Source: a virus. Taken from it: a stretch of 22,952 nucleotides of DNA. Position 1 is the first letter of the stretch; each line of letters opens with the position of its first letter. A model generated the notes under the pieces. It had not been told where the DNA came from and made no database searches. It worked only from the letters and a program-made list of their open reading frames with translations. Below, one piece after another: positions 1,548-22,154 of the stretch. Location: the IMG/VR virus record IMGVR_UViG_3300014913_000083, positions 1-22,952 of that record. One strand, 5' to 3'. The position numbers were made by a program, and so were the translations under genes.

Positions 1548-1826
1548 ATGGCATTAACAGCACTAATCACATCTCAAACAGCAGCGGCTACAAGTTCAGA
1601 GTTCGTTGTTACATCCCCGACAACAGTTACCTGCGATGGCCTTGGGATTGACGATGTTGTCCAAGTTTTGGTAAAAACAGTAGCTGGAACATTTCAGCAA
1701 CTAAATTATAAAGAGCCGGTTTTGCTCACAAGGCGTGATAACACTATCATCCTATCAGCAATCGGAGCTTATCAAGTCAAAAAAGGCGTAACATCTGCCG
1801 CCGTTTCGGTTGGCTACGAAGCTTAA
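1548..1826 (+). CDS. Small beta-rich phage protein, probable virion accessory or fibre-associated protein
   Basis: No named family is recognised with certainty. The 92 residues are strongly beta-patterned, with no signal peptide, membrane segment or cysteine cluster apart from a single Cys. Alternating segments such as 'VVQVLVKTVAGTFQQL' are followed by 'VLLTRRDNTIILSAIGAYQV' and a closing 'KKGVTSAAVSVGYEA'. This pattern (a variable strand pair, an LT..DN loop, a G-x-Y-x-V-K strand, then a short valine-rich end) resembles small beta-sandwich proteins encoded beside phage fibre genes. The start ATG has a good Shine-Dalgarno (GCGAGGAAA) and is the first gene after a predicted promoter. It is followed after 16 bp by the next gene of the same block. 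A role as a decoration or appendage protein is inferred from shape and context only. Confidence 0.7.
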   Translation: MALTALITSQTAAATSSEFVVTSPTTVTCDGLGIDDVVQVLVKTVAGTFQQLNYKEPVLLTRRDNTIILSAIGAYQVKKGVTSAAVSVGYEA

Positions 1827-1842
1827 TAGTTGAGGTTTTACA

Positions 1843-2442
1843 ATGCCCCATTTTATTAAGTCTCCTTTTTCACCTCCTTTTTTAAATCCGGTAGCATGTC
1901 CATTATATGCTGATGGTGTTATCGGTTCGTCTTTACCTCCTGTTTCAGACAAGCTAATTGCGTGGCTAGACGGCTCGAACACAGACCTAACTCACAAGAC
2001 CGACAAGATTAATAGCTATGATTTCCTGATGGCTAATTGCCCATATACTGCTATTCTGGATGGTGAAGGCAACCCGGTGTTAGATGGTGCTGGTGATCCT
2101 ATTTACTCACCAGAACTTGATACTACTGGTTGGGAGTGCGAATACACAGCACCAGCAAGCGGTCAGCCCGGACATACTGAGTTATTGGCAATTGATGATG
2201 GTACTCTTTATACTGGCTCGACTCCAAATACTTTAACTAAAATAATCATGGAAGCGATTGATAATGATCAGATGATTTGGGATCATAACAGGGAGGCATT
2301 ATTGATTTATGATGCGCCCTTGGTCGGGGACGAATTACAGTCCGTTTTGCTTTATTGCGGTAAAATTCAAGTAATGTCTTATTTGGGCCAACCAATTAGT
2401 TTTAATGGCGAACAAATAACAACACAAATAGTGGTGGCGTAA
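1843..2442 (+). CDS. Hypothetical protein in the TerL-portal block (unrecognised)
   Basis: I do not recognise this 199-residue protein. It lacks a convincing signal peptide: the N-terminus has aromatic and proline residues (FIKSPFSPPF) but no continuous hydrophobic core. The middle carries an imperfect tandem 'ILDGEGNPV' / 'VLDGAGDPI' repeat at about residues 66-86, a hairpin-like pattern often seen in beta-structured phage fibre or adhesin proteins. The C-terminal half is mixed, with 'IIMEAIDNDQMIWDHNREALLIY' followed by beta strands to the end. The start ATG has a TGAGG Shine-Dalgarno 8-9 bases upstream, 16 bp after the preceding gene. It ends one base before the next start, so the two are probably translated together. 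Being a virion or appendage protein is inferred from the flanking lectin-like and fibre-like genes; an enzymatic role cannot be excluded. Confidence 0.65.
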   Translation: MPHFIKSPFSPPFLNPVACPLYADGVIGSSLPPVSDKLIAWLDGSNTDLTHKTDKINSYDFLMANCPYTAILDGEGNPVLDGAGDPIYSPELDTTGWECEYTAPASGQPGHTELLAIDDGTLYTGSTPNTLTKIIMEAIDNDQMIWDHNREALLIYDAPLVGDELQSVLLYCGKIQVMSYLGQPISFNGEQITTQIVVA

Positions 2443-2443
2443 A

Positions 2444-3766
2444 ATGACAATAGATGTATTCCAAGTTCCGCTTGATGAGACACACGAAGTTACTCTAAGC
2501 GGCGATCAAATAATATTAGATGGGTCACTGTATAATTTTTTCGACATTTATCTAGATAGACCGCTAACCCGGATTAGTAATATAATCAACAAAGTAGACG
2601 GACGAGAATATTTTTTGCATTTCCGGCAAGACGGAATTGGTAAAAGAGCAGTTAAGTTTGGAGACTGGACAGAGCATGATAATTTAACATGCGATATTAC
2701 AAATGTGAGTGGAACCGTTACTATTACAATCACCGCTGGTTCCTTTGACTGGGACACGCTAAGTAGTGAAACTCTTGGCGGTTCAGATATACATATGTCA
2801 GGGTGGTCAGATAACTGCAATAATATTTGTTGTGTTGAGGTGACTGATTTTGACGAGAGTGCAGGTACTATCACGTTGGATCATCCATTTGCAGACTGTG
2901 TTACCAATCGAACCGGTGAAACTGGAGTCTCGCTCAATGTGCACAACAACTACTACTACCAAGATGAAGTTAAAGATAGCTGGGTTTCTACAGATGCAAG
3001 AGATGTAACAATCTTCACAGCGAAGACCTCTAGTCAAGATGTGTTTATTCTGGAGAAGAAAGGAACACTACACAGGCGGCATGTTATTTCTGCTCAAGCT
3101 AGACACTGGAACGAAAGGTGGGATGACTTCATTGGCGGTAATGATGATGGGCTTCTCCAGTGGCAAGAAGCCAATAATGGTGGATACATTAATATTGATT
3201 CATCAGCAAGTGACTCAAACCACTTTGGTGTAGTTTCTCTTAGGCTCAATAGTGGTATTACAATCGGACGTGTTCAAATGAGATTAGGCAGAGATGCCTT
3301 TATACTTGATAATGTCAAAGCAGTGATGGAAACCGTACAACGATATAAAACCACAGCTTTCGATCAAACAGGTATTACTTACTTTCACGGCTGGGGTGAC
3401 CAAAATAATGATCCCGGAGCCTTGAGTGCCGGTGTCTATTTCGAGATTAGAAGCAATGGCGATAGTACAGGGCAAGTTTGGTGCGTGACAAATGACGGTG
3501 GCACTAAAACGGAGCACAATACTGATATTTTTATAGCTGAAGATACATGGTACGCCACAAAGATTCAGATTGCTGCTGATTTTAGTCATGTCCATTTCTT
3601 TTTGAATGACCATGAAGTAGCCAAAATAGGCACTAATCTCAGTGCAGACAGAGTACATTGTTTCTTTGGTTCTGACTATCCAACAGGGCCAGCATTGACG
3701 AGTAACAAGGAAATGGAAGTAGATATGTTCTATGTTAAGTATCGAATGAATTCAGACAGGATATGA
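2444..3766 (+). CDS. Protein with C-terminal concanavalin/LamG-like domain, probable appendage or receptor-binding protein
   Basis: The 440-residue protein has two parts. Residues 1 to about 220 are beta-rich with no recognised family. Residues from about 224 to 440 follow the pattern of a concanavalin A-like (LamG-type) jelly-roll used by phage proteins for carbohydrate binding. It begins with 'FIGGNDDGLLQW' and includes 'GVYFEIRSNGDSTGQVW', a 'DTWYATKIQI' strand, an 'HVHFFLNDHEVAKIG' hairpin and a final 'VDMFYVKYRMNSDR'. No signal peptide or membrane segment is seen. The ATG follows the preceding stop by one base and lacks a strong Shine-Dalgarno, which suggests translational coupling; the end overlaps the next gene's upstream region. 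Binding a host surface glycan is inference; ligand residues cannot be assigned by eye. Similar modules also occur in decoration proteins and depolymerase accessories. Confidence 0.75.
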   Translation: MTIDVFQVPLDETHEVTLSGDQIILDGSLYNFFDIYLDRPLTRISNIINKVDGREYFLHFRQDGIGKRAVKFGDWTEHDNLTCDITNVSGTVTITITAGSFDWDTLSSETLGGSDIHMSGWSDNCNNICCVEVTDFDESAGTITLDHPFADCVTNRTGETGVSLNVHNNYYYQDEVKDSWVSTDARDVTIFTAKTSSQDVFILEKKGTLHRRHVISAQARHWNERWDDFIGGNDDGLLQWQEANNGGYINIDSSASDSNHFGVVSLRLNSGITIGRVQMRLGRDAFILDNVKAVMETVQRYKTTAFDQTGITYFHGWGDQNNDPGALSAGVYFEIRSNGDSTGQVWCVTNDGGTKTEHNTDIFIAEDTWYATKIQIAADFSHVHFFLNDHEVAKIGTNLSADRVHCFFGSDYPTGPALTSNKEMEVDMFYVKYRMNSDRI

Positions 3767-3774
3767 GGAATAAA

Positions 3775-4602
3775 ATGAAAAAATTAATACTAGGATTGAT
3801 ACTCCTTCTGCCAACAACAGCTATGGCAAGCGGTCAATGGGGTAGTATGACGCCACTAGGAACCCCGGCCAGCAACTCAGATGCAATAGTAACCAGTGAT
3901 GATAGTACAGCATCAAAGACTTCGCAGCTTTTGTTTAGTGGTGACGCGGAAGAGTGCTTGCGCGGTACTGGTATGTGGGCTGATTGCGCAAATGATACTG
4001 CGTATAATGCGACTAGCTGGAATGGCAATAATGATGCTGCAACTAAGAACGCCTTGCGTGATTGGTTCGAGACTCTTCAAGTTTCGATTGATCTTAACAC
4101 AGCCAAGACAAGCTATAATTCGACCGACAGCACAAAGGTAGGTCATATATCAATTACTCAAGATGTGGATTTAGATACTGTTGAGAGTGACACGGCCACG
4201 AATAATGCTAAAATTACAAACGCAACACATACCGGAGATGTTATTGGTTCTGGAGCTTTGACAATAGCTGTTGACGCTGTTGACATTGCAATGCTCTCAG
4301 CCACTGGAACAGCAGACTCAACAACATATCTTCGTGGTGAGAAAGCTATTTTATCTATTGGTTCAGGTTGTAGGTGTGTCCAGCATAATCGTGATGTTGG
4401 TGGTTCCCCTAATTCACAACATTTATATTTTAGAGCCATCGACGGTAGTTTAATTATCAAGCAAACTGATGGTGTATACATCGAGATACCATCAATTGAT
4501 ATCTATAATTATGTTGATGCTAAATATCCTGATAGTTTAGGGCTGGGTTGCTACCCAACATTTGTTCATATTGATAGCAGATCAACTAAGGCAAGGTGGT
4601 AG
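3775..4602 (+). CDS. Exported fibre-like protein (Sec signal peptide plus tail-fibre motifs)
   Basis: I chose the ATG at 3775 because a TGAGGAAT Shine-Dalgarno sits just upstream; the in-frame ATG at 3763 would add four residues (MRNK) before the same signal. The 275-residue product begins with a classical Sec signal peptide: MKK, a hydrophobic core 'LILGLILLLPTT', and an AMA signal-peptidase-I site with cleavage expected before SGQWG. There is no lipobox cysteine. The mature part looks like phage fibre material: 'DTAYNATSWNGNNDAATKN', 'NATHTGDVIGSGALTIA', 'TTYLRG', and 'CLRGTGMWA' resembling the common fibre motif FLRGDGTWA. Virion proteins are normally assembled in the cytoplasm, so a signal peptide here is unexpected. 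The product may act in the periplasm or at the surface of the infected cell, or the signal may be a retained hydrophobic anchor. The last third, with five Cys overall, is unrecognised. Confidence 0.75.
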   Translation: MKKLILGLILLLPTTAMASGQWGSMTPLGTPASNSDAIVTSDDSTASKTSQLLFSGDAEECLRGTGMWADCANDTAYNATSWNGNNDAATKNALRDWFETLQVSIDLNTAKTSYNSTDSTKVGHISITQDVDLDTVESDTATNNAKITNATHTGDVIGSGALTIAVDAVDIAMLSATGTADSTTYLRGEKAILSIGSGCRCVQHNRDVGGSPNSQHLYFRAIDGSLIIKQTDGVYIEIPSIDIYNYVDAKYPDSLGLGCYPTFVHIDSRSTKARW

Positions 4603-4642
4603 TTGTGGTGAGTTGCGATATCGTTTTTAACGAGGCTAAACA

Positions 4643-5053
4643 GTGAAATACTACTCTGACTTAAAGTATCAATTAGCAGAAGACCACTTTCATGCCATTA
4701 CAGATATACGAATCATCCCAATAAATGACATAGAAACTAAGTTTGTTAACTTGTCTGCTACCGGGAAGTTGGTTATTAAAGCGGGCTTTGCTTGGGACGG
4801 CCCAAGCGGGCCTACCAGAGACACAAAATCAAATATGAGGGCGGCACTGGTCCATGATGCGATTTATTATCTAATTAGACAAGAGATGATCCCCCATAGT
4901 TCTTGGCGCTATGCTGATCAAGAATTTGAGTTGATATGTAAAGAAGACAATATGAATTCTTTTAGGTTGTGGTATTACATGATTGGTTTAAATGCTGCAA
5001 ATGGCCGAGCTGCACTACCCAAGAACAAACGAAAGGTACACGAAATTAAATAA
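4643..5053 (+). CDS. DUF1353-like protein
   Basis: The 136-residue protein fits the DUF1353 pattern: a glycine-phenylalanine strand followed by 'WDGPSGPTRD' (Asp52, Ser55), then a helix with 'AALVHDAIYYL' (His71, Asp72, Tyr75) and a further 'YADQEF' (Asp93). The conserved His and Asp residues suggest a metal or catalytic site, but no reaction is established for the family that I can state with confidence. It is common in phages and prophages. The start is GTG with an ACGAGG Shine-Dalgarno seven bases upstream; no in-frame ATG fits the conserved N-terminus. It is the last gene of the block inserted between TerL and portal and is followed by a second promoter-like sequence. No signal peptide is seen. 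Confidence 0.7.
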   Translation: MKYYSDLKYQLAEDHFHAITDIRIIPINDIETKFVNLSATGKLVIKAGFAWDGPSGPTRDTKSNMRAALVHDAIYYLIRQEMIPHSSWRYADQEFELICKEDNMNSFRLWYYMIGLNAANGRAALPKNKRKVHEIK

Positions 5054-12390: not shown

Positions 12391-12612
12391 ATGATAGCTG
12401 GATATGAGAATAAAAGGTTAAAGCTTAATTCTGACCTTGGCATTTATAAAAAAGGCAGTTCTGTTAATGCTACATTTGGGCCAGACGACCAGCCAGTTTC
12501 ACCATATTGGCGAAAAAGGCTTGAAGAGTCAAAGAAAGATAATTGTTTAGAAATAGTAAAGCGGCCTAAAAAGACCGTTAAGAATAAGGCAAAAGCCGAT
12601 AAGGAGGTTTGA
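12391..12612 (+). CDS. Mu gp38-like small protein (DUF2635-like)
   Basis: This small protein lies exactly where Mu has gp38, between the gp37-like and sheath genes. The pattern 'KLNSDLGIYKKGSSVNATFGPDDQPVSPYWRKRLEESKKDNCLEIVK' matches the DUF2635 scheme, with a short beta start, a substitution-tolerant loop, 'YWRKRL' and an acidic/beta end. The C-terminus adds a lysine-rich tail. The ATG at 12391 is chosen with GGTGAT upstream; an in-frame GTG at 12382 would add three residues and overlap the previous stop by 8 bp. The 3' end carries the strong AAGGAGG of the sheath gene. Function is unknown. Confidence 0.65.
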   Translation: MIAGYENKRLKLNSDLGIYKKGSSVNATFGPDDQPVSPYWRKRLEESKKDNCLEIVKRPKKTVKNKAKADKEV

Positions 12613-12614
12613 TT

Positions 12615-14168
12615 ATGCCTGTTAGTTTACCGAGCGTAACGCTCTCAATAATTCCAGCAACGCAACTTTCAGGCGTGACAGCTCAGAAAGTTCTTATTGT
12701 TGGTCAAATTTCGGCTTCTGGCGCGGCAGCCTCAGCTGGAACTTTGCACCAGAATGTTCAAGCTGATGGCTCGGAGAAAACTAAGTTCGGTATTCGCTCG
12801 CACTTAGCCCACATGATCCAAGCATTTAAGGCTGACAACAAGGTAACGCAACTAGATGTTTTTACAGTTGCGGACCCAACCACAGCTGCCGCTCAGGCAA
12901 CCGCAACTATAACTTGTACTGATGTCGTTGGTGATGCCACAGAAGCTGGCACTATAAGTATCCAAGTCGGCAATGTAGTTAAAGATGTCTCTGTTGCTGT
13001 TGGGGACGGCGGCGAAGACTTAGCCGATGCTATTGTAACTGCTTTTACTGATACTGATTATGCGTTTGGCACACCTGTGAAGTCTGGGACTGGTCCATGG
13101 ATTGTGACATTCACAATTGATAGTAACGGCGCAGTAGGTAACGACCTACCAATTATTGTTGGAGATTTAATATCTGGTACTGATGTTGTCGTTACTACTG
13201 GCTTCGATGACGGTGCAGGGATTGTTGTTTATTCTGGCCTAGCTGCTGCTATTCAGAATATTAGATATCAAACTATTGTTTGGCCGTCTGCTTATACTGT
13301 TGCCGACATCACGACCATTGTTGATGATCGATTTAACGAGACAAACGAGGTGATGGACGGTATAGCTGTTCAGACAGTTTGCGACACGCTTACTACCCTA
13401 AAGTCTGCGGCCCTAGCTGAAAACTCGCAGAACCTTGTTATGATCGCTCAGAACCCAGTCACAGTAACAGGCGGTGCTGTTTATCCCTCGACAAATGCAA
13501 GCCCTGATTACTTGTCTGTTCAAGTCGCCGCTATCAGGTCTTTAAGACTGACAGAAGATGCTTTGCTGACTGACTACTTGACCACAACAGCAAGGCAAGA
13601 TCAATATGGCGGCATTGGATTAGCTAGTTTGCCATATTTTAATACAGCATTGCCTAATTTGCCTGTTGCTGACCCAACAGAAGATTACTCGTTACTAGAA
13701 TATGCAGAGCTTGCAAGTAATGGTTTAGCTGCTGCCGGGCCTAACCGGGCCTACTCTGGGTCGGTCTTTGGCGAATTTGTCACTACTTATATTAACGATA
13801 CTGCTGGGAACCCTGATTCAAGTTATAAGTATCTGAACACTGTAGATACTGTTTCGGTAATTAGAGAATTTTTCTTCGAGAACTTAAAGTCTCGATATGC
13901 TCAAACAAGATTAACAACTGGCGACCTGATCCAAGGCAAGGCAATGGCAAACGAGCCGAGCATTAGAGCTTTTTGCCATCGTTTATATGATGAATTAGCC
14001 GATGAAGGTTTAGTTCAAAAAGGAACAGCAGCGAAGCAAGATTACAACGCTAATCTTAGTATCACTGTTGATATCGCAAATGGAAAAGTTACCATTGACC
14101 AGGCCCCATTGTTAGTTACTCAGCTTAGAGTGATTATAGGCACTGTTCAGGTAAATTTTGGAGGATAA
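12615..14168 (+). CDS. Tail sheath protein (Mu gpL-like)
   Basis: The contractile sheath surrounds the tube and drives it through the envelope. I use the ATG at 12615, seven bases after AAGGAGG at 12601-12607; the longer TTG version (12609) overlaps the ribosome-binding site. The product has 517 residues, near Mu gpL length. The N-terminus ('LPSVTLSIIPATQLSGVTAQKVLIVGQ') and the core 'DVFTVADPTTAAAQATATI' with an inserted beta domain (residues about 97-205) are typical of Mu-type sheaths. So is the C-terminal domain, with 'GPNRAYSGSVFGEFVTTYINDTAGNPDSSYKYLNTVDTVSVIREFF' and a closing beta region ('LSITVDIANGKVTI'). The strong ribosome-binding site suits a protein needed in many copies. It ends 3 bp before the tube gene. 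Confidence 0.93.
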   Translation: MPVSLPSVTLSIIPATQLSGVTAQKVLIVGQISASGAAASAGTLHQNVQADGSEKTKFGIRSHLAHMIQAFKADNKVTQLDVFTVADPTTAAAQATATITCTDVVGDATEAGTISIQVGNVVKDVSVAVGDGGEDLADAIVTAFTDTDYAFGTPVKSGTGPWIVTFTIDSNGAVGNDLPIIVGDLISGTDVVVTTGFDDGAGIVVYSGLAAAIQNIRYQTIVWPSAYTVADITTIVDDRFNETNEVMDGIAVQTVCDTLTTLKSAALAENSQNLVMIAQNPVTVTGGAVYPSTNASPDYLSVQVAAIRSLRLTEDALLTDYLTTTARQDQYGGIGLASLPYFNTALPNLPVADPTEDYSLLEYAELASNGLAAAGPNRAYSGSVFGEFVTTYINDTAGNPDSSYKYLNTVDTVSVIREFFFENLKSRYAQTRLTTGDLIQGKAMANEPSIRAFCHRLYDELADEGLVQKGTAAKQDYNANLSITVDIANGKVTIDQAPLLVTQLRVIIGTVQVNFGG

Positions 14169-14171
14169 TAA

Positions 14172-14552
14172 ATGTCTACTCGTACTTTATCAAATCCGTC
14201 ATTAGAGATTAATGATGATGTCGTGGCCTATGTCCCGAACTCTTTATCATATAAAGAGGGCAGTGGAGATAAAGAGGTCAAAGCGCAAACATCTGGCGGA
14301 AATTCTATATCTGTTGTTGTTACTGAAAATGCTGAAACTAAGATATCGAACTTAAAGTTCAAGCTGTTCAATACAGCAGCAAACCTTAATTTGATTAACA
14401 CATGGTCAGCGAACCTAGCCAACACTGCAGCACTATCAGAGGGTGAAATATCAGTTTCATTCCGCGATATGGTTGTTTGCACTGAGCCTGAAAGGGCTAT
14501 CGGTGCTGATGGTGAGCTTGAAATTGAGTTCAAGGGCGCACCAGTAGTATAG
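14172..14552 (+). CDS. Tail tube protein (Mu gpM-like)
   Basis: This forms the inner tube through which DNA passes. The 126 residues show the Mu tail-tube pattern: 'NPSLEINDDVVAYVPNSLSYKEGSGDKEVKAQTSGGNSISVVVTENAETKISNLKFKLFNTAANLNLINTW' compresses to alternating strands with the 'KFKLFNT..N...I..W' hallmark. The end is 'DMVVCTEPERAIGADGELEIEFKGAP'. It follows the sheath directly with GGAGG upstream of the ATG, the standard sheath-tube order, and is followed by a terminator-like hairpin. Confidence 0.92.
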   Translation: MSTRTLSNPSLEINDDVVAYVPNSLSYKEGSGDKEVKAQTSGGNSISVVVTENAETKISNLKFKLFNTAANLNLINTWSANLANTAALSEGEISVSFRDMVVCTEPERAIGADGELEIEFKGAPVV

Positions 14553-14640: not shown

Positions 14641-15081
14641 ATGGAAACTTTTATTTATGATCTAAATAAAGAACTGCAATTTTCAAAGGGTGGTGATTTT
14701 TCAACCACTGCAAGCCTAGAGTTTACTTCTGCTGGTATGTCGGCATTTGATGAAGTATCAGAGTTTGAACAACTAATTGCTGGTGCTTTCTTGAGTTCAG
14801 CGAAAGCAGCGACCACAAGTGGACAAGCACCAGAAGAAGCAAAAGCGGACGAACAAGTATCCCCGTCCGCATCTGATATTAAAATGATTTTGGTATCATG
14901 CCAAGATATTAAACTTGCAGATATAGCCAAAAGTTTCCGTCGTTTAGCTTGTAAAACTTGCACTATAGATAATAGCGGCACACTCATCAAAGACAGCCAT
15001 TTCAATAAGTTGAGCCGTGAAGACTTTATGGGTATGCTTTGTGAGTATGTTGCAAATTTTACCTTTCCCTCACTCTTTTAA
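14641..15081 (+). CDS. Tail assembly chaperone, short (frame-0) product (Mu gp41-like position)
   Basis: This 146-residue product occupies the chaperone position, between tube and tape-measure genes, in the same order as Mu gp41 and lambda G. The N-terminus 'ETFIYDLNKELQFSKGGDFSTTASLEFTSAGMSAFDEVSEFEQLI' gives a beta start with a helix. An Ala/Glu-rich linker (residues about 52-78) follows, then 'SDIKMILVSCQDIKLADIAKSFRRLACK' and a helical C-terminus ending 'FTFPSLF'. Chaperones of this class bind and shield the tape measure during tail assembly and are absent from the virion. The Shine-Dalgarno is AAGGAAAAA. The stop lies within a frameshift signal, so a second, longer product is expected. 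Confidence 0.8.
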   Translation: METFIYDLNKELQFSKGGDFSTTASLEFTSAGMSAFDEVSEFEQLIAGAFLSSAKAATTSGQAPEEAKADEQVSPSASDIKMILVSCQDIKLADIAKSFRRLACKTCTIDNSGTLIKDSHFNKLSREDFMGMLCEYVANFTFPSLF

Positions 15082-15088
15082 GTGGGGG
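15054..15088 (+). promoter_or_regulatory. Programmed -1 ribosomal frameshift signal
   Basis: Slippery heptamer A AAT TTT (15054-15060, X XXY YYZ in frame 0), spacer ACCTTT (15061-15066), then a stem: CCCTCACT (15067-15074) pairs with AGTGGGGG (15081-15088), with seven Watson-Crick pairs and one G-U around the loop CTTTTA. The frame-0 TAA (15079-15081) sits at the loop/stem edge. It is the only in-frame X XXY YYZ heptamer in the 37-nt interval where the shift must occur. Confidence 0.85.
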
Positions 15089-15251
15089 TTTTGTTTCAGA
15101 CAAGAACGAGTGGCTTTACCTGATAGCCCAAATTATGAAGTTTTACGAGGGGGCCATATCTTATGAAACAGCCCTTTCAATGTCACTCTGGGAATTAAGA
15201 TCAATGCTAATCAATGCTGACAAGATAAACAAAGCGATCAAGGACGACTAA
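15060..15251 (+). CDS. Chaperone frameshift extension (-1 frame), making a G-T-like fusion with the upstream gene
   Basis: The -1 frame is closed by TGA at 15042-15044, then open to TAA at 15249-15251, which overlaps the tape-measure ATG by one base. It has no ribosome-binding site or credible start of its own. After a slip at 15054-15060, decoding would run Tyr-Leu-Ser-Leu, then 'GGFVSDKNEWLYLIAQIMKF', 'YEGAISYETALSMSLWEL' and a charged end (INADKINKAIKDD). That adds 63 residues after residue 140, a 203-residue fusion. The 'WLYLIAQ...YEG..SYE..LSMSLWEL' pattern resembles the T-type extension of other phage chaperones. A frameshift into this segment is known from lambda (G/GT) and many other tailed phages; here it is predicted, not measured. 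Confidence 0.85.
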   Translation, partial: YLSLTLLSGGFVSDKNEWLYLIAQIMKFYEGAISYETALSMSLWELRSMLINADKINKAIKDD

Positions 15252-16897
15252 TGGCCAGACAAGTTTCGTTTATATATGAAGTTATTGATCGTTTCACCGG
15301 GCCACTCCGGAAAGTAAAACGCGCACAAGACCGACTCAATAAGTCCTTATCTAGGGGTAGTCAAAAAGCTAAAAAGTTTTCAGAGAAGATGGGGCAAGTC
15401 GGTGGTGGACCTCAAGCTGTGGCTGCTGTTGCAGGAATTGGTTTAATGGCAAAAGTCACATCTGATCTTGAAGACAAGATGGCGGATGTTGCAAGAGTAA
15501 CAGACTTATCAAAAACTGGCGTTGCATCTCTACAGTCTGAATTTAGGGGACTATCAAAGGCAACAGGCAAGAGCGCAACAGGCTTCGCCGATATCGCTTT
15601 TCAAGCTGGCAAAACTGGTATTGCTTCCGACAAATTAAAAGACTTTGCATTAAACACAATAAAAACAGCAAACGCTTTTGACATGGTTGAGAGTGAAGCT
15701 GGCCGGGCGTTAGGATCGATCAGGACTAAACTAGACTTATCAGTTGATGGCGTTGATGTTTTAATGAACAGGGTTAATTATCTAGCCGATACCACCGTTG
15801 CCGATGGCGCAAGGATGGTTAATATTCTTGAAAGAACATCTGGCACAATGAAGCTATTTAAGATTCCAACAGATGTTACTGCTGGATGGGTTGCTTTTGC
15901 TGATCAAGTAGAAAGAAGCCCTGAGCTTGCTGCAAGCGGAATAAACATGATGATGAATAAGCTTGCCAGTATGCCAGGTATGACTGAAAAAATGCTTGCT
16001 AATCCTCGGACAGCAATCATTGATGTTATGCGTAAAATATCGCGGATGGATGAAGTTGCGAGGATTGGCTTTATTCGTGAAGCCTTTGGCCCAGAAGCTG
16101 GGCGGTTCGTTTCCAAGTTAGTCACTAAAATGGACCTGCTTGACAAGTCTATGTCGAACGCTATGGCCCCTGAGGCTCTAGGTTCAATAGATAGGGAATG
16201 GGCCAATTACATGGCAAGGACCTCGACAAAGTTTAAGAAGTTTAAGCAGTCTGTGATTGATGTTTTCAGGACTATTGGTGTGCAAATACTTAGGACTTTT
16301 GATAAGTATTACCCTGCAATTCAAGCAGCAACTGACAAGATACTATCATTCGTTAAAGCCCACCCCGGCCTTGTTAAGTTTGGATTAGCAATAACCGCAA
16401 TAGGTATAGTAATGGTTCCCTTAGTTATGGCACTAGGAGCTTTTGCTTCTGGTCTATCTGCTGTCTTAGCTATATTGCCAGCATTGGGAGCTGTTGGAAC
16501 TGCCATTGGGGTTGCACTAGGGGCAATAACTGCGCCAGCTATAGCCGTTACCGCTGCTGTTGTGGGGGTTGGCGCTGCTGCTTATCAAGCATACAAACAT
16601 TTTGATGTATTAAAACAAGCTGCCAATGATGTGTATGATTCATTGGCCAAAGTTGGCAAGGTAATGTCTCAGACTAGTCGGGGCATATGGGGCGGTTTAA
16701 AGTCAGCTCCTGGGCAAATATGGGAAGGTATGTTTGGCGGTGACGACAAGAACATTGTCGGGCAAAATGCTAAAGCAAACAGGCAGACAATTGACGGCAA
16801 TATAAATGTAACTGCCAACCCAGGGACAACAGTAACAAAAGCCACATTGTCATCTAATCACGGCAATATGGGCATGAACACAATAGGAGCTTATTAG
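15251..16897 (+). CDS. Tail tape measure protein (Mu gp42-like)
   Basis: The tape measure sets tail length and helps DNA ejection. The 548 residues are helical, with a basic start ('YEVIDRFTGPLRKVKRAQDRLNKSL') typical of Mu-type tape measures, and a TP901-type core with 'FRGLSKATGKSATGFADIAFQAGKTGI', 'AFDMVESEAGRALGSIRTKLDLSVDGVDVLMNRVNYLADTTVADGARMVNILERTSG'-like order and 'EAFGPEAGRF'. A long hydrophobic Ala/Val/Gly-rich stretch (residues about 372-448) contains several potential membrane-spanning helices, and a terminal 'IDGNINVTANPGTTV' strand region follows. By the usual relation of roughly 0.15 nm per residue, the tail would be on the order of 80 nm. The ATG overlaps the chaperone extension's stop (TAATG), and AAGGA lies upstream. 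Confidence 0.92.
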   Translation: MARQVSFIYEVIDRFTGPLRKVKRAQDRLNKSLSRGSQKAKKFSEKMGQVGGGPQAVAAVAGIGLMAKVTSDLEDKMADVARVTDLSKTGVASLQSEFRGLSKATGKSATGFADIAFQAGKTGIASDKLKDFALNTIKTANAFDMVESEAGRALGSIRTKLDLSVDGVDVLMNRVNYLADTTVADGARMVNILERTSGTMKLFKIPTDVTAGWVAFADQVERSPELAASGINMMMNKLASMPGMTEKMLANPRTAIIDVMRKISRMDEVARIGFIREAFGPEAGRFVSKLVTKMDLLDKSMSNAMAPEALGSIDREWANYMARTSTKFKKFKQSVIDVFRTIGVQILRTFDKYYPAIQAATDKILSFVKAHPGLVKFGLAITAIGIVMVPLVMALGAFASGLSAVLAILPALGAVGTAIGVALGAITAPAIAVTAAVVGVGAAAYQAYKHFDVLKQAANDVYDSLAKVGKVMSQTSRGIWGGLKSAPGQIWEGMFGGDDKNIVGQNAKANRQTIDGNINVTANPGTTVTKATLSSNHGNMGMNTIGAY

Positions 16898-16898
16898 G

Positions 16899-18140
16899 AT
16901 GGCTGTTGGACTGCGATTAAAAGATTTTCAAGTGGCTAAATTTCGAGACCTTCCTATTTTTGTTACTAGTGAGTCAGTTAGTAGAGGGAAAAAAACAGTC
17001 ATCCATGAATACCCGAATAGTGATAAGCGTTTTGTCGAGGAACTTGGCAAACTACCACCGACATTTACTTTGAATGTGATTGTCTTTGGCTCCGATGCTG
17101 TCCAAGATAGATACAACCTAGAGTTTAAGCTGGAAGAACCTGGTCTAGGCACGCTTATCCACCCTGTCTACGGATCTAATGAAGTTCAAGTTTTAGAATA
17201 TAACGCAAAGTCTGACCAAACCAAGATCGGGGTTTTTGAGTATTCTATCAAGTTTGCAATATCAGAAGCTACCATAACACCCACACCAGCCGAAGTAACA
17301 AGCTCTAATGTCAAAAACGATGCTGAATTGGCCAGAGAAGCTATATTTGGGTCATTAGTTGATAAATATATTCCACCAGAGATGTCTGATTCTATTGTGG
17401 GTGTTGCTGATAATGTCACCGGCATTTATGATACAGTAGAAGATAATATCAACAATGTCACCGGCACTATTATTTCACAAATGGCAACTTTCACTCGATT
17501 TATAACCCAGGGGCGTGATTCTGTTTATCAAGTGATCCAAACCGGCCAGAATGTAAAGGACTCGTTAGTAGATGTGTATAATTCAGCATTAGCTGCCGTA
17601 AGCGACCCGTCGACATTAACGGCGGCATGGGAAGAGTTATTATCGTTTAATCTTGATGGTTCTACAACAGACTTTGGGCCAATAACAACAGTTACAAGGA
17701 CAGCCACAGGAACAAGTCAAAATATAACAGACGAGCACACAAGGTTAATGGCTTTAATTAATTACACCGAAGCTCTTTCGTTTACTGAGTTTTCAACGAT
17801 GTCTAGTTTGGAAGAAGCAAGGACGAAAATGGTTGAACATTATGACCTGTTTTTTCGTGATGGGGATAAGGTTACTGGCGACTATGGCCTTGACTCTATG
17901 CTTAATGATCCCATTGTTAGGGGTGCTTTAAATACTTTGAAGATAACGGCCATTGCAGACTTTGAGACAAAAGAACAAAATGCTTGGCGGGTACTTGATG
18001 TTGATGGCGGAATATCATCTTTGGTACTGCTAAACTATCAATATTATGGTAGTTTAGATAACATTGATACAGTTTTAAATTTGAATACCAATATAAACGC
18101 TGCTAATTTTGTAAACGAAGAGGTCAAGATAGTTCAATGA
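16899..18140 (+). CDS. DNA circularisation / tail-baseplate protein (Mu gpN-like)
   Basis: Mu gpN is a tail-baseplate component that also protects the ends of injected DNA. The 413-residue product has the family's N-terminal domain: 'LKDFQVAKFRDLPIFVTSESVSRGKKTVIHEYPNSDKRFVEELGKLPPTFTL' in outline, with 'YNLEFKLEEPGLGTLIHPVYG' and 'FEYSIKFA' following. The rest (from about residue 130) is a long helical region with 'DNVTGIYDTVEDNINNVTGTI', an internal near-repeat of D/N-rich helix starts. It begins 1 bp after the tape measure, with a TTAGGATG ribosome-binding region, and overlaps the gpP-like gene by 4 bp (ATGA). Gene order matches Mu N-P. Confidence 0.88.
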   Translation: MAVGLRLKDFQVAKFRDLPIFVTSESVSRGKKTVIHEYPNSDKRFVEELGKLPPTFTLNVIVFGSDAVQDRYNLEFKLEEPGLGTLIHPVYGSNEVQVLEYNAKSDQTKIGVFEYSIKFAISEATITPTPAEVTSSNVKNDAELAREAIFGSLVDKYIPPEMSDSIVGVADNVTGIYDTVEDNINNVTGTIISQMATFTRFITQGRDSVYQVIQTGQNVKDSLVDVYNSALAAVSDPSTLTAAWEELLSFNLDGSTTDFGPITTVTRTATGTSQNITDEHTRLMALINYTEALSFTEFSTMSSLEEARTKMVEHYDLFFRDGDKVTGDYGLDSMLNDPIVRGALNTLKITAIADFETKEQNAWRVLDVDGGISSLVLLNYQYYGSLDNIDTVLNLNTNINAANFVNEEVKIVQ

Positions 18141-19165
18141 TCCAACTCCAAGTTAACGGGAAAAATTACACTGATTTTCTTGCTGCTGATGTCCAGTTGT
18201 CTATTGATCAGTTAGTTGGAGGCTTTGCTTTTCAGGCAACTGCCACACCGGCAAGTATTTTCCCTTTTTCTATGCGAGATGTTGTTAAGGTGATAGCTGA
18301 TGGATTTACTGTTATAACTGGCGTGATTGATAAGATTGAGGTTTCCTATGATGCTTTCGCACACACTATCTCAATAACTGGCCGGAGTTTACTCGCTGAT
18401 CTTGTAGATAGTTCAATAGATGAACAAATCAATACGACAGAACTGTCATTAGCTAAGATTTGTGAAAAAGTTTTGTCCGATATTGGTTTAAATGTTAAAG
18501 TCATAGACAATAGCGGAACCAGTGAATTTAAAGATTATGATATTGCAAGCTCAGAGGAAGGACAGACAGCATTTGAATTTATTCAGGCATTAGCTAATAA
18601 GCGGCAAGTATTACTAACAAGCGATAGTGATGGTAATTTACTGTTGACTCGGGCCGGAACAGAAACAGCCCCTTTTAATCTGCAAAACAAGCTAGAAGCA
18701 AAGGATAATAATATACTCACCGGCACTTACACAACAGATCAATCAAGCCAATTTTATAAGTATAAAGTAAATAGTCAGTTGTCATTGCTGAAAATGCTTG
18801 AAGAAACAACACCGGAAGATGCCGCCAATCAATCAGGAATAGCAATAAACGAAAGCATTAGAGAAACAAGGCTCCTAAGCTTAACAGCGGAAGAAAACAG
18901 CGACAACGAAACAGATGTAGACCGCGCCAAGTGGGAAAGAAACATACGCAAAGCTCGTGGAATTGGAGCAACATATAATATTCAAGGCCATTCAATGGGT
19001 GGTAAAGAGATAAAGATAAATCAGCTAGTTCAAGTCAATGACGATTATTTATCTCTCAATGAAAAGATGCTAATTAAAATGGTCAACTTGAAATATAGTT
19101 TAGACTCTGGGTCGATAACAACTATCCAATTATCTGACCCCAAGGCATATACTTTAGATGATTAA
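18137..19165 (+). CDS. Baseplate hub protein (Mu gpP-like)
   Basis: Mu gpP is the T4 gp27-like hub protein that binds the spike. The 342 residues open with 'IQLQVNGKNYTDFLAADVQLSIDQLVGGFAFQATA', a beta domain. 'VVKVIADGFTVITGVIDKIEVSYDAFAHTISITGRSLLADLVDSSID' follows, which is the hub family signature, then 'EEGQTAFEFIQALANKRQVLLTSDSDGNLLLTR' and a mixed C-terminal domain ending in 'DDYLSLNEKMLIKMVNLKYSLDSGSITTIQLSDPKAY'. Both ends overlap neighbours (ATGA upstream, 8 bp with gp45), which fits coupled translation of the hub and spike. Confidence 0.9.
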   Translation: MIQLQVNGKNYTDFLAADVQLSIDQLVGGFAFQATATPASIFPFSMRDVVKVIADGFTVITGVIDKIEVSYDAFAHTISITGRSLLADLVDSSIDEQINTTELSLAKICEKVLSDIGLNVKVIDNSGTSEFKDYDIASSEEGQTAFEFIQALANKRQVLLTSDSDGNLLLTRAGTETAPFNLQNKLEAKDNNILTGTYTTDQSSQFYKYKVNSQLSLLKMLEETTPEDAANQSGIAINESIRETRLLSLTAEENSDNETDVDRAKWERNIRKARGIGATYNIQGHSMGGKEIKINQLVQVNDDYLSLNEKMLIKMVNLKYSLDSGSITTIQLSDPKAYTLDD

Positions 19166-20259: not shown

Positions 20260-21567
20260 ATGATTTCATTCCCAAGTTACAAAACGATTATAGATCGTGT
20301 CCGGGCCGATGTTTCAAGCCTTATACCTGAGTTGGACCCTGCTGGACTTTTTGGTAGCTTTATCCGGGCAATCACAGACAGTTGTGGTGGTCGGCATTAC
20401 GACAATGTTCTGTTGTTACAACAGCTAGAAAAAGAAGTTTTCCCACAAACAGCATCTGCCGAATCGCTAGAACAGTGGGCGGCCTATGAAGCATTATCAA
20501 GAAATCCGGCTGTATCGTCTAGTGGGCATATTACAGTAAGTGGTACAATTAACACAACCATTCCATTATCAACGGCCTTCCAATCTATAAATAACCTGTC
20601 GTTTGTTACTACTTCTGTTGATACCATTACAACAGTTGTTAATTCTATAACCACACTAACACGGTCTGGGACAACGGCAACAGCTTATTGTTCTGACGCT
20701 CACAATTTAGCCACACATACTAATATTACAATAGCTGGGGCGGTGGAAACTGATTATAATGGGACTTTTGAAGTAACAGTAATATCAGCGACAGTCTTTA
20801 GTTATACTTTAACTGCTACCCCAACCACACCAGCAACCGGCACGATTACGGCAACTGGAGACTACGCCTGTGTCCAAGTAGAGTCAGTTAGTGCTGGAAA
20901 CGACCAAAATATTGAACCAGGGGCCACATTTAATATAAGCGATATTGTGACAGGTGTTGATTCTGAGTCGTATGTCGGGATTGGTGGTATAACAGGAGGG
21001 GCAGACGCTGAGACGGATAGCGAGCTACTAACTAGAGTTATGAGTAGTAGGGCTAACCCTGTCGCCAATTTTAGTGTTGGATCAATAACTAGAGATGTTC
21101 TATCTGTTTCTGGAGTGACTAGGGTTTTGGTTAAAAGGGTAACACCATATGTCGGGGCCGTTACTGTTTATTTTGTCCGTGATAATGACGACGATATCAT
21201 TCCTGATGCCGGAGAAGTTCAAACAGTCCGAGACAAACTACTGCTAACATTGCCAGCTCAAACAGAAGAAACTGATTTGATAGTAGAAGCACCAACAGCG
21301 GTGACCACTAACTATGTTTTTAGTGGTCTAACGCCAAACACGACTACCATGCAAGACGCTGTTCTGGCCAACCTGCAAGCGTTTTACGAAGATAATGCAG
21401 ATTTTGAGACCGACATAACAGAAGATGCGTATAGGTCAGCTATAATTGAGACTATTGACCCCGTTACAGGCGATCCTTTATCTTCATTTACTCTAACAAG
21501 CCCGACAGGTGATATATCAATAACATCTGGGCAAATAGGTGTTTTGGGAACGGTGACTAACCCATGA
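20260..21567 (+). CDS. Baseplate J-like wedge protein (Mu gp47-like) with inserted beta-sandwich module
   Basis: Baseplate J proteins (T4 gp6-like) form the wedge around the hub. The 435-residue product has the family start ('FPSYKTIIDRVRADVSSLIPELDPAGLFGSFIRAITDSCGGRHYDNVLLLQQLEKEVFPQTASAESLEQWAAYEALSRNPA' in outline) and the end ('VSVSGVTRVLVKRVTPYVGAVTVYFVRDND' and 'GDPLSSFTL'). Residues about 131-200 are an inserted repeat-type beta module: 'ITTLTRSGTTATAYCSDAHNL', 'ITIAGAVETDYNGTFEVTVI', 'PTTPATGTITATG'. The Shine-Dalgarno is AAGGA. Its last 4 bp overlap gp48. The insert makes the protein longer than its usual counterpart. Confidence 0.9.
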   Translation: MISFPSYKTIIDRVRADVSSLIPELDPAGLFGSFIRAITDSCGGRHYDNVLLLQQLEKEVFPQTASAESLEQWAAYEALSRNPAVSSSGHITVSGTINTTIPLSTAFQSINNLSFVTTSVDTITTVVNSITTLTRSGTTATAYCSDAHNLATHTNITIAGAVETDYNGTFEVTVISATVFSYTLTATPTTPATGTITATGDYACVQVESVSAGNDQNIEPGATFNISDIVTGVDSESYVGIGGITGGADAETDSELLTRVMSSRANPVANFSVGSITRDVLSVSGVTRVLVKRVTPYVGAVTVYFVRDNDDDIIPDAGEVQTVRDKLLLTLPAQTEETDLIVEAPTAVTTNYVFSGLTPNTTTMQDAVLANLQAFYEDNADFETDITEDAYRSAIIETIDPVTGDPLSSFTLTSPTGDISITSGQIGVLGTVTNP

Positions 21568-22154
21568 GTTTATTCACACCACAGCCTTTAACTAGGCAGC
21601 CATTATACTTGGCTAAACATTTGCCAGATGGCAAGTTATGGGAAAATAAGTTTAATATTAGTTCGAATATCGGCAAACTAATTAAAGCCCTTAGTTCTGG
21701 GTTTCATTACATTCAAGAGTATATCCACACTTTTTATACTGAGTTTGGTATAACGACAACTGACCAATTAATTGAAGATTGGGAAAAGTCGGTTGGTATT
21801 CCCGGTGATTGTTTTACCGCAAGTGGTACATTGGCCCAAAGACGAATAGCTGTTGAGCAAAAGTTCAGTAATTATCAAGGCGTTCAGGTAGCGAGCGACT
21901 TTGTACGAGTTGCAGCATTATTTGGTTTTGATATTGATGTATTCCCAGGTGCTGAAAAATTAACAGGAACAGATAAAACAATAAGACATACCATTGTTGT
22001 TGTCTTGAATAATCCTGCCACCGGCAGTGAATTTTTCCCACTTGGTTTCCCTGTTGTATTTTCATCACAAGGACAAACAACATTGCAATGTGTTTTTGAC
22101 ACACTGGCCCCGGCCAATGTTAAAGTTGAAATATATAAATTAGGTGATATTTAA
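21564..22154 (+). CDS. Tail/baseplate protein (Mu gp48-like)
   Basis: Mu gp48 is the last baseplate wedge gene before the fibres and is thought to connect baseplate and fibre. The 196-residue product begins 'FTPQPLTRQPLYLAKHLPDGKLWENKF', shows 'LIEDWEKSVGIPGDCFTASGTLAQRRIAVEQKFSNYQGVQVASDFVRVAALFGFDIDVFPGAEK' in outline, and ends with a beta segment 'FPLGFPVVFSSQGQTTLQCVFDTLAPANVKV'. The 'P.G..W', 'DW...VG.P.DC' and 'R...V......G.....F' motifs are the usual DUF2313 pattern. It overlaps gp47 by 4 bp, and its stop shares one base with the tail fibre ATG (TAATG). Confidence 0.85.
   Translation: MSLFTPQPLTRQPLYLAKHLPDGKLWENKFNISSNIGKLIKALSSGFHYIQEYIHTFYTEFGITTTDQLIEDWEKSVGIPGDCFTASGTLAQRRIAVEQKFSNYQGVQVASDFVRVAALFGFDIDVFPGAEKLTGTDKTIRHTIVVVLNNPATGSEFFPLGFPVVFSSQGQTTLQCVFDTLAPANVKVEIYKLGDI

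Follow-up and report, generated by a model that had tools for sequence, protein, structure and literature searches.

A tail assembly chaperone gene starts at position 14641 of an IMG/VR virus record of 22,952 bases, analysed here over its whole length and referred to as the window. Its reading frame closes inside a second frame, displaced by -1, which stays open as far as the tape-measure gene, and this raises the question of whether one gene gives rise to two proteins. The available evidence indicates that the chaperone is very probably made in two lengths by -1 programmed ribosomal frameshifting of the lambda G/GT type. The original prediction of such a frameshift, called "textbook", is thus supported by the comparison with related loci, and the adjective appears fair.

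Overlapping frames and slippery heptamer in the window

The window carries a contractile-tail module (Table 1). The chaperone gene lies in it between the genes for the sheath and the probable tube and the gene for the tape measure, and the extension ends where the tape-measure gene starts; both features are expected for frameshifted tail assembly chaperones of the G/GT type. The tube candidate gave no profile match and was assigned by position only. Elsewhere in the window, the region 1548-5053, between large terminase and portal, contains a Peptidase M15 domain protein (3763-4602), a DUF1353-like protein scoring below the cut-off (4643-5053) and unprofiled, possibly fibre-like proteins; this interval is an unusual site for lysis or fibre-type genes.

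Table 1. Tail genes and frameshift elements of the window
Feature	Position	Strand	Basis or remark
Sheath	12609-14168		PHROG profile match
Probable tail tube protein	14172-14552	+	Position after sheath; matches annotated tube gene position in Salmonella phage 118970_sal3
Short form, tail assembly chaperone (G-like), 146 aa	14641-15081	+	ORF; homologous to short forms of 11 relatives
Open -1 frame	15045-15251	+	Closed upstream by TGA 15042-15044; ended by TAA 15249-15251
Slippery heptamer A AAT TTT (P-site AAT, A-site TTT)	15054-15060	+	Same codon position as relatives' heptamers
Spacer ACCTTT, 6 nt	15061-15066	+	Sequence reading
Hairpin, 8 bp (one G-U), loop CTTTTA; probable frameshift stimulator	15067-15088	+	Predicted folding
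Tape measure protein	15251-16897	+	PHROG 28, E 2e-59
DNA circularisation protein	16899-18140		Profile/ORF survey of window
GpP-like hub	18137-19165		Mu-type tail protein
Baseplate J	20260-21567		Mu-type tail protein
Mu-like Gp48	21564-22154		Mu-type tail protein

The frame-0 stop is the TAA at 15079-15081, and the TAA that ends the -1 frame shares its last A with the ATG of the tape-measure gene. The codons read after the shift (15060-15248) encode a T-like extension of 63 residues, which has homologous counterparts in the -1 frame of 11 relatives; the predicted fusion has 203 residues, and the frame-0 tail beyond the shift site only 6. A shift in the opposite direction was rejected: the +1 frame stays open as far as 15166, but it encodes a product unlike any relative's extension. 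All the details given in the original prediction (the ORF, the -1 frame, the heptamer, the spacer, the stem and the length of the fusion) were re-derived and proved correct.

Within the 37-nt overlap of the two frames (15045-15081), A AAT TTT is the sole X XXY YYZ heptamer in register; the T TTC CCT at 15064 does not fit the reading frame. Of the 5382 codon pairs in the window's genes, 22 carry an in-frame heptamer, a rate at which the overlap would contain one or more with P 0.04, while codon shuffling gives P 0.07; the heptamer by itself is mildly unusual, and the evidence from the window alone is suggestive. No SD-like stimulators were found upstream of the heptamer in the window. Systematic tests in E. 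coli placed H_HH.U_UU.Y among the most efficient -1 motifs (PMC4066793); both A_AA.U_UU.U and U_UU.U_UU.C belong to this class, the efficiency ranking being that of E. coli and, for the host of this phage, a guide only.

From these features we infer that slippage happens, how often it does so and what each product does, as follows. Most ribosomes would stop at 15079, releasing the short form, while a minority, with tRNA-Asn and tRNA-Phe on the heptamer, would slip back by one base, aided by the hairpin located 6 nt further on, and would read on to 15248 to complete the fusion. By analogy with lambda gpG/gpGT, the tape measure protein would be bound by the N-terminal domain that both proteins share, and tube subunits would be recruited by the C-terminal extension. 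The original prediction also held the fusion to be required for tail assembly, a role that may be transferred from lambda G/GT (PMC5009743).

Conservation of the site among relatives

Since the chaperone is too divergent to be found by its own sequence, relatives were located through their tape-measure proteins, and the sequence upstream of these genes was then read. Searches with the chaperone sequence gave no matches in IMG/VR or among GenBank phages, scans with the sheath and hub proteins gave no matches, and scans of genome contigs returned only very distant Rikenellaceae tape-measure matches, which were of no use; the alignment of the extensions alone was too variable to serve as a scan query. 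The systematic assessment covered relatives down to about 30% tape-measure identity and comprised 11 non-redundant loci with upstream DNA (L002, L008, L009, L016, L017, L019, L033, L034, L035, L036 and L037); a further one, L038, is identical to L035 over the chaperone gene. Together with the window, the 11 relatives form one clade in the tape-measure protein tree.

The original prediction had proposed a comparison of homologous loci for conservation of heptamer, spacer and stem. In 11/11 relatives this revealed a short form, a heptamer of the slippery type at the corresponding codon, and a -1 extension homologous to that of the window; most also have a hairpin, and none lacks the arrangement. 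The retention of the heptamer at one codon is, among the sequences compared, the strong part of the evidence for frameshifting. The motif is T TTT TTC in 9/11, T TTT TTT in L037 and A AAT TTT in L035 (and L038), where its context, GC AAATTTT AC, is identical to that of the window. That a true frameshift mutation or a sequencing error split one gene, a reading favoured by nothing beyond the split itself, is refuted by the recurrence of this split at that codon in all 11 relatives and by selection on the -1 frame.

In the tape-measure tree L035 is the fully supported sister of L036, which carries T TTT TTC, and the window is placed elsewhere with moderate support. As the two sisters differ and the window stands apart from both, this tree calls for no fewer than two switches of the heptamer within the family, between T TTT TTC and A AAT TTT, with the slippery class retained each time. 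A clade made up of the window and L035 was rejected (p 0.00017), as expected given that L036 is the sister of L035. Both forms of the motif are H_HH.U_UU.Y heptamers, and the family suggests that selection keeps slipperiness and not one particular heptamer sequence.

In most relatives no more than about 10 nt separate the end of the extension from the start of the tape-measure gene. At L016 a gene for recombination endonuclease VII (3343-3942, minus strand; Pfam PF02945, E 2.5e-22) is located between the extension stop and the tape measure, whereas in its sister L017 the two adjoin; the inserted gene is likely a free-standing homing endonuclease beside the frameshift gene.

Hairpin and translation of the extension

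The two arms of the window hairpin (15067-15074 and 15081-15088) enclose the loop in such a way that the frame-0 stop falls inside the structure. The 34 nt 3′ of the heptamer have a minimum free energy of -12.1 kcal/mol (z -2.9 against shuffles), and the same folding z-scores for all 12 sequences, which are related to each other, combine to a Stouffer value of -7.1. Most relatives have a stem-loop about 4-8 nt past the heptamer, with differing sequences: stems of the GCCCTC/GAGGGC type occur in seven relatives and different ones in the window, L034 and L036. An Rfam search gave no match. A predicted downstream structure of this kind is common, and non-essential, in G/GT-type chaperones. The original prediction also stated that the stem sets the ratio of the two products; this is only plausible, because the hairpins of L035 and L037 fold weakly (z -0.9 and -1.2).

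In the window the hairpin runs into a T-rich tail and resembles an intrinsic terminator in its score, so that it could be mainly a terminator or attenuator before the tape-measure gene, a reading compatible with frameshifting. The stem of 8 bp contains 5 G-C pairs, is followed by TTTTGTTT and was flagged by the terminator scan. However, terminator-like sites number 4 in 2 kb against 1.7 expected, and the relatives carry a hairpin at the same spacing without the T run; what is conserved is the heptamer with its hairpin and not the terminator feature, which makes a mainly terminating role unlikely. A hairpin with dual use, stimulating the -1 shift and acting, through its T-rich tail, as a translation-sensitive terminator before the tape measure, is very doubtful; if it existed, the ratio of the chaperones and the dose of the tape measure would be set together.

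The close pair L016 and L017 bears on how the extension is read. Past the frame-0 stop 18 codons differ between the two extensions; these differences amount to 4 non-synonymous changes and no stops in the -1 frame, versus 17-18 non-synonymous changes plus 3-6 stop-containing ones in the other two frames. On this substitution pattern coding selection acts on the -1 frame of the extension in these relatives, the window having no relative close enough for such a comparison; more divergent pairs of relatives gave a weaker signal.

A coding extension might also be translated as a small protein of its own, either from an independent start or by reinitiation once the frame-0 stop has been reached. 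The stop and the start regions are close together, and ATG codons occur in the -1 frame of the window 75, 120 and 144 nt into the extension. In the relatives, however, the conserved residues of the extension begin at the heptamer itself (FF|RYALGRG), ahead of any start, and the extension of L019 is without any common start codon. L036 is the most telling case: a TAG in the -1 frame abuts its heptamer and the next start codon lies 99 nt beyond it, so that, as its sequence reads, independent initiation of the residues between the heptamer and that start is excluded, and the conserved residues there can come only from a shift in the overlap. A separate protein is, as a result, very improbable.

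Even less probable is a change of frame by transcriptional slippage of the mRNA on a T run, with no role for the ribosome. Runs of T6 or T7 are found at the site in relatives, but the window and L035 have only the T4 inside A AAT TTT, a run too short for transcriptional slippage, and the conserved feature is the X XXY YYZ register and not a homopolymer.

Protein family and comparison with known frameshifted chaperones

Neither the short form nor the extension of the window matched any PHROG or Pfam profile, and the PHROG tail assembly chaperone families gave nothing convincing for any of the 12 members. The Pfam family PF10109 (Phage_TAC_7) left the window protein unmatched and was hit, below threshold, by the distant L040 and L046 only. 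The AlphaFold2 model of the short form is confident (pLDDT 86) and displays a beta hairpin followed by helices. Among the PDB chains aligned with it, the best was 2ob9, the tail assembly chaperone of HK97 (Z 4.5, with an rmsd of 4.0 over 87 residues; the next scored 3.1), and such structural matches are of low confidence, a Z of 4.5 being in the range where unrelated folds can also score. For the short form, Foldseek against the PDB gave no significant match and a PDB sequence search nothing relevant; the viral Foldseek search listed, below the top, several annotated tail assembly chaperones with weak E-values, including Mu FS-gp41. The model of the extension is moderate (pLDDT 73). A 'tape measure chaperone' of Citrobacter phage Moogle matched both the short-form and the extension models weakly.

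Conservation of a -1 frameshift in long-tailed phages, with lambda gpG/gpGT as the known case, is credited to Xu, Hendrix and Duda (2004), as that work is cited in PMC5009743 and PMC10885494. Similarly to lambda, the window gene precedes the tape measure and comprises a short form, with a heptamer near its end, and a -1 extended form whose extension ends at the start of the tape-measure gene. It has no detectable sequence match to described families; its heptamer A AAT TTT, the very short frame-0 tail after the shift and the clear downstream hairpin also set it apart from lambda. The frameshift trick is well known in phages and ordinary in kind; the protein family is undescribed and unprofiled. 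The known frameshifted tail chaperones thus gain a family that no PHROG or Pfam profile covers, and annotation pipelines will therefore overlook its second product as well as its function.

A similar arrangement is that of Salmonella phage 118970_sal3 (SfV-like), which has the same order of sheath, tube, chaperone, tape measure, DNA circularisation protein and hub, and in which T TTT TTT is followed by an unannotated -1 extension reaching the tape measure. Its short form, however, has 108 residues and belongs to PHROG 166, and the similarity to the window is too low for a confident alignment. In its record (L005:2835-2993; KU927493.2) the GenBank chaperone ends at 2901, and both the heptamer and the open -1 extension lack annotation. 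A -1 shift on T TTT TTC was also proposed for overlapping tail assembly genes of the P. aeruginosa Mu-like phage PaMx73 (PMC4378225); its heptamer is of the U_UU.U_UU.Y class, but the phage has a siphovirus tail, and the likeness is one of arrangement.

With phage Mu, whose gp41/FS-gp41 (E, 41 or 14) belongs to PF10109, the window shares the Mu-type proteins of its tail module and the weak structural match noted above for the short form. Mu uses an exceptional -2 shift (PMC4378225), whereas that of the window is -1.

Among more distant loci, L040 (3831-3837) and L046 (3841-3847) have A AAT TTT abutting a frame-0 TAG stop, followed by a -1 extension; slippage may be enhanced by having the stop next to the site. 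The chaperone-like genes of L062 (2719-3143) and L067 (2791-3215) have an open -1 extension without an X XXY YYZ heptamer, and the CTT TTT present there (a U_UU.U tetramer) may be the slip site. A chaperone-like gene of L042 (3386-3788), with counterparts in L043, L044 and L065, has its extension in the +1 (equivalently -2) frame, as in Mu, and this extension ends shortly before the tape measure.
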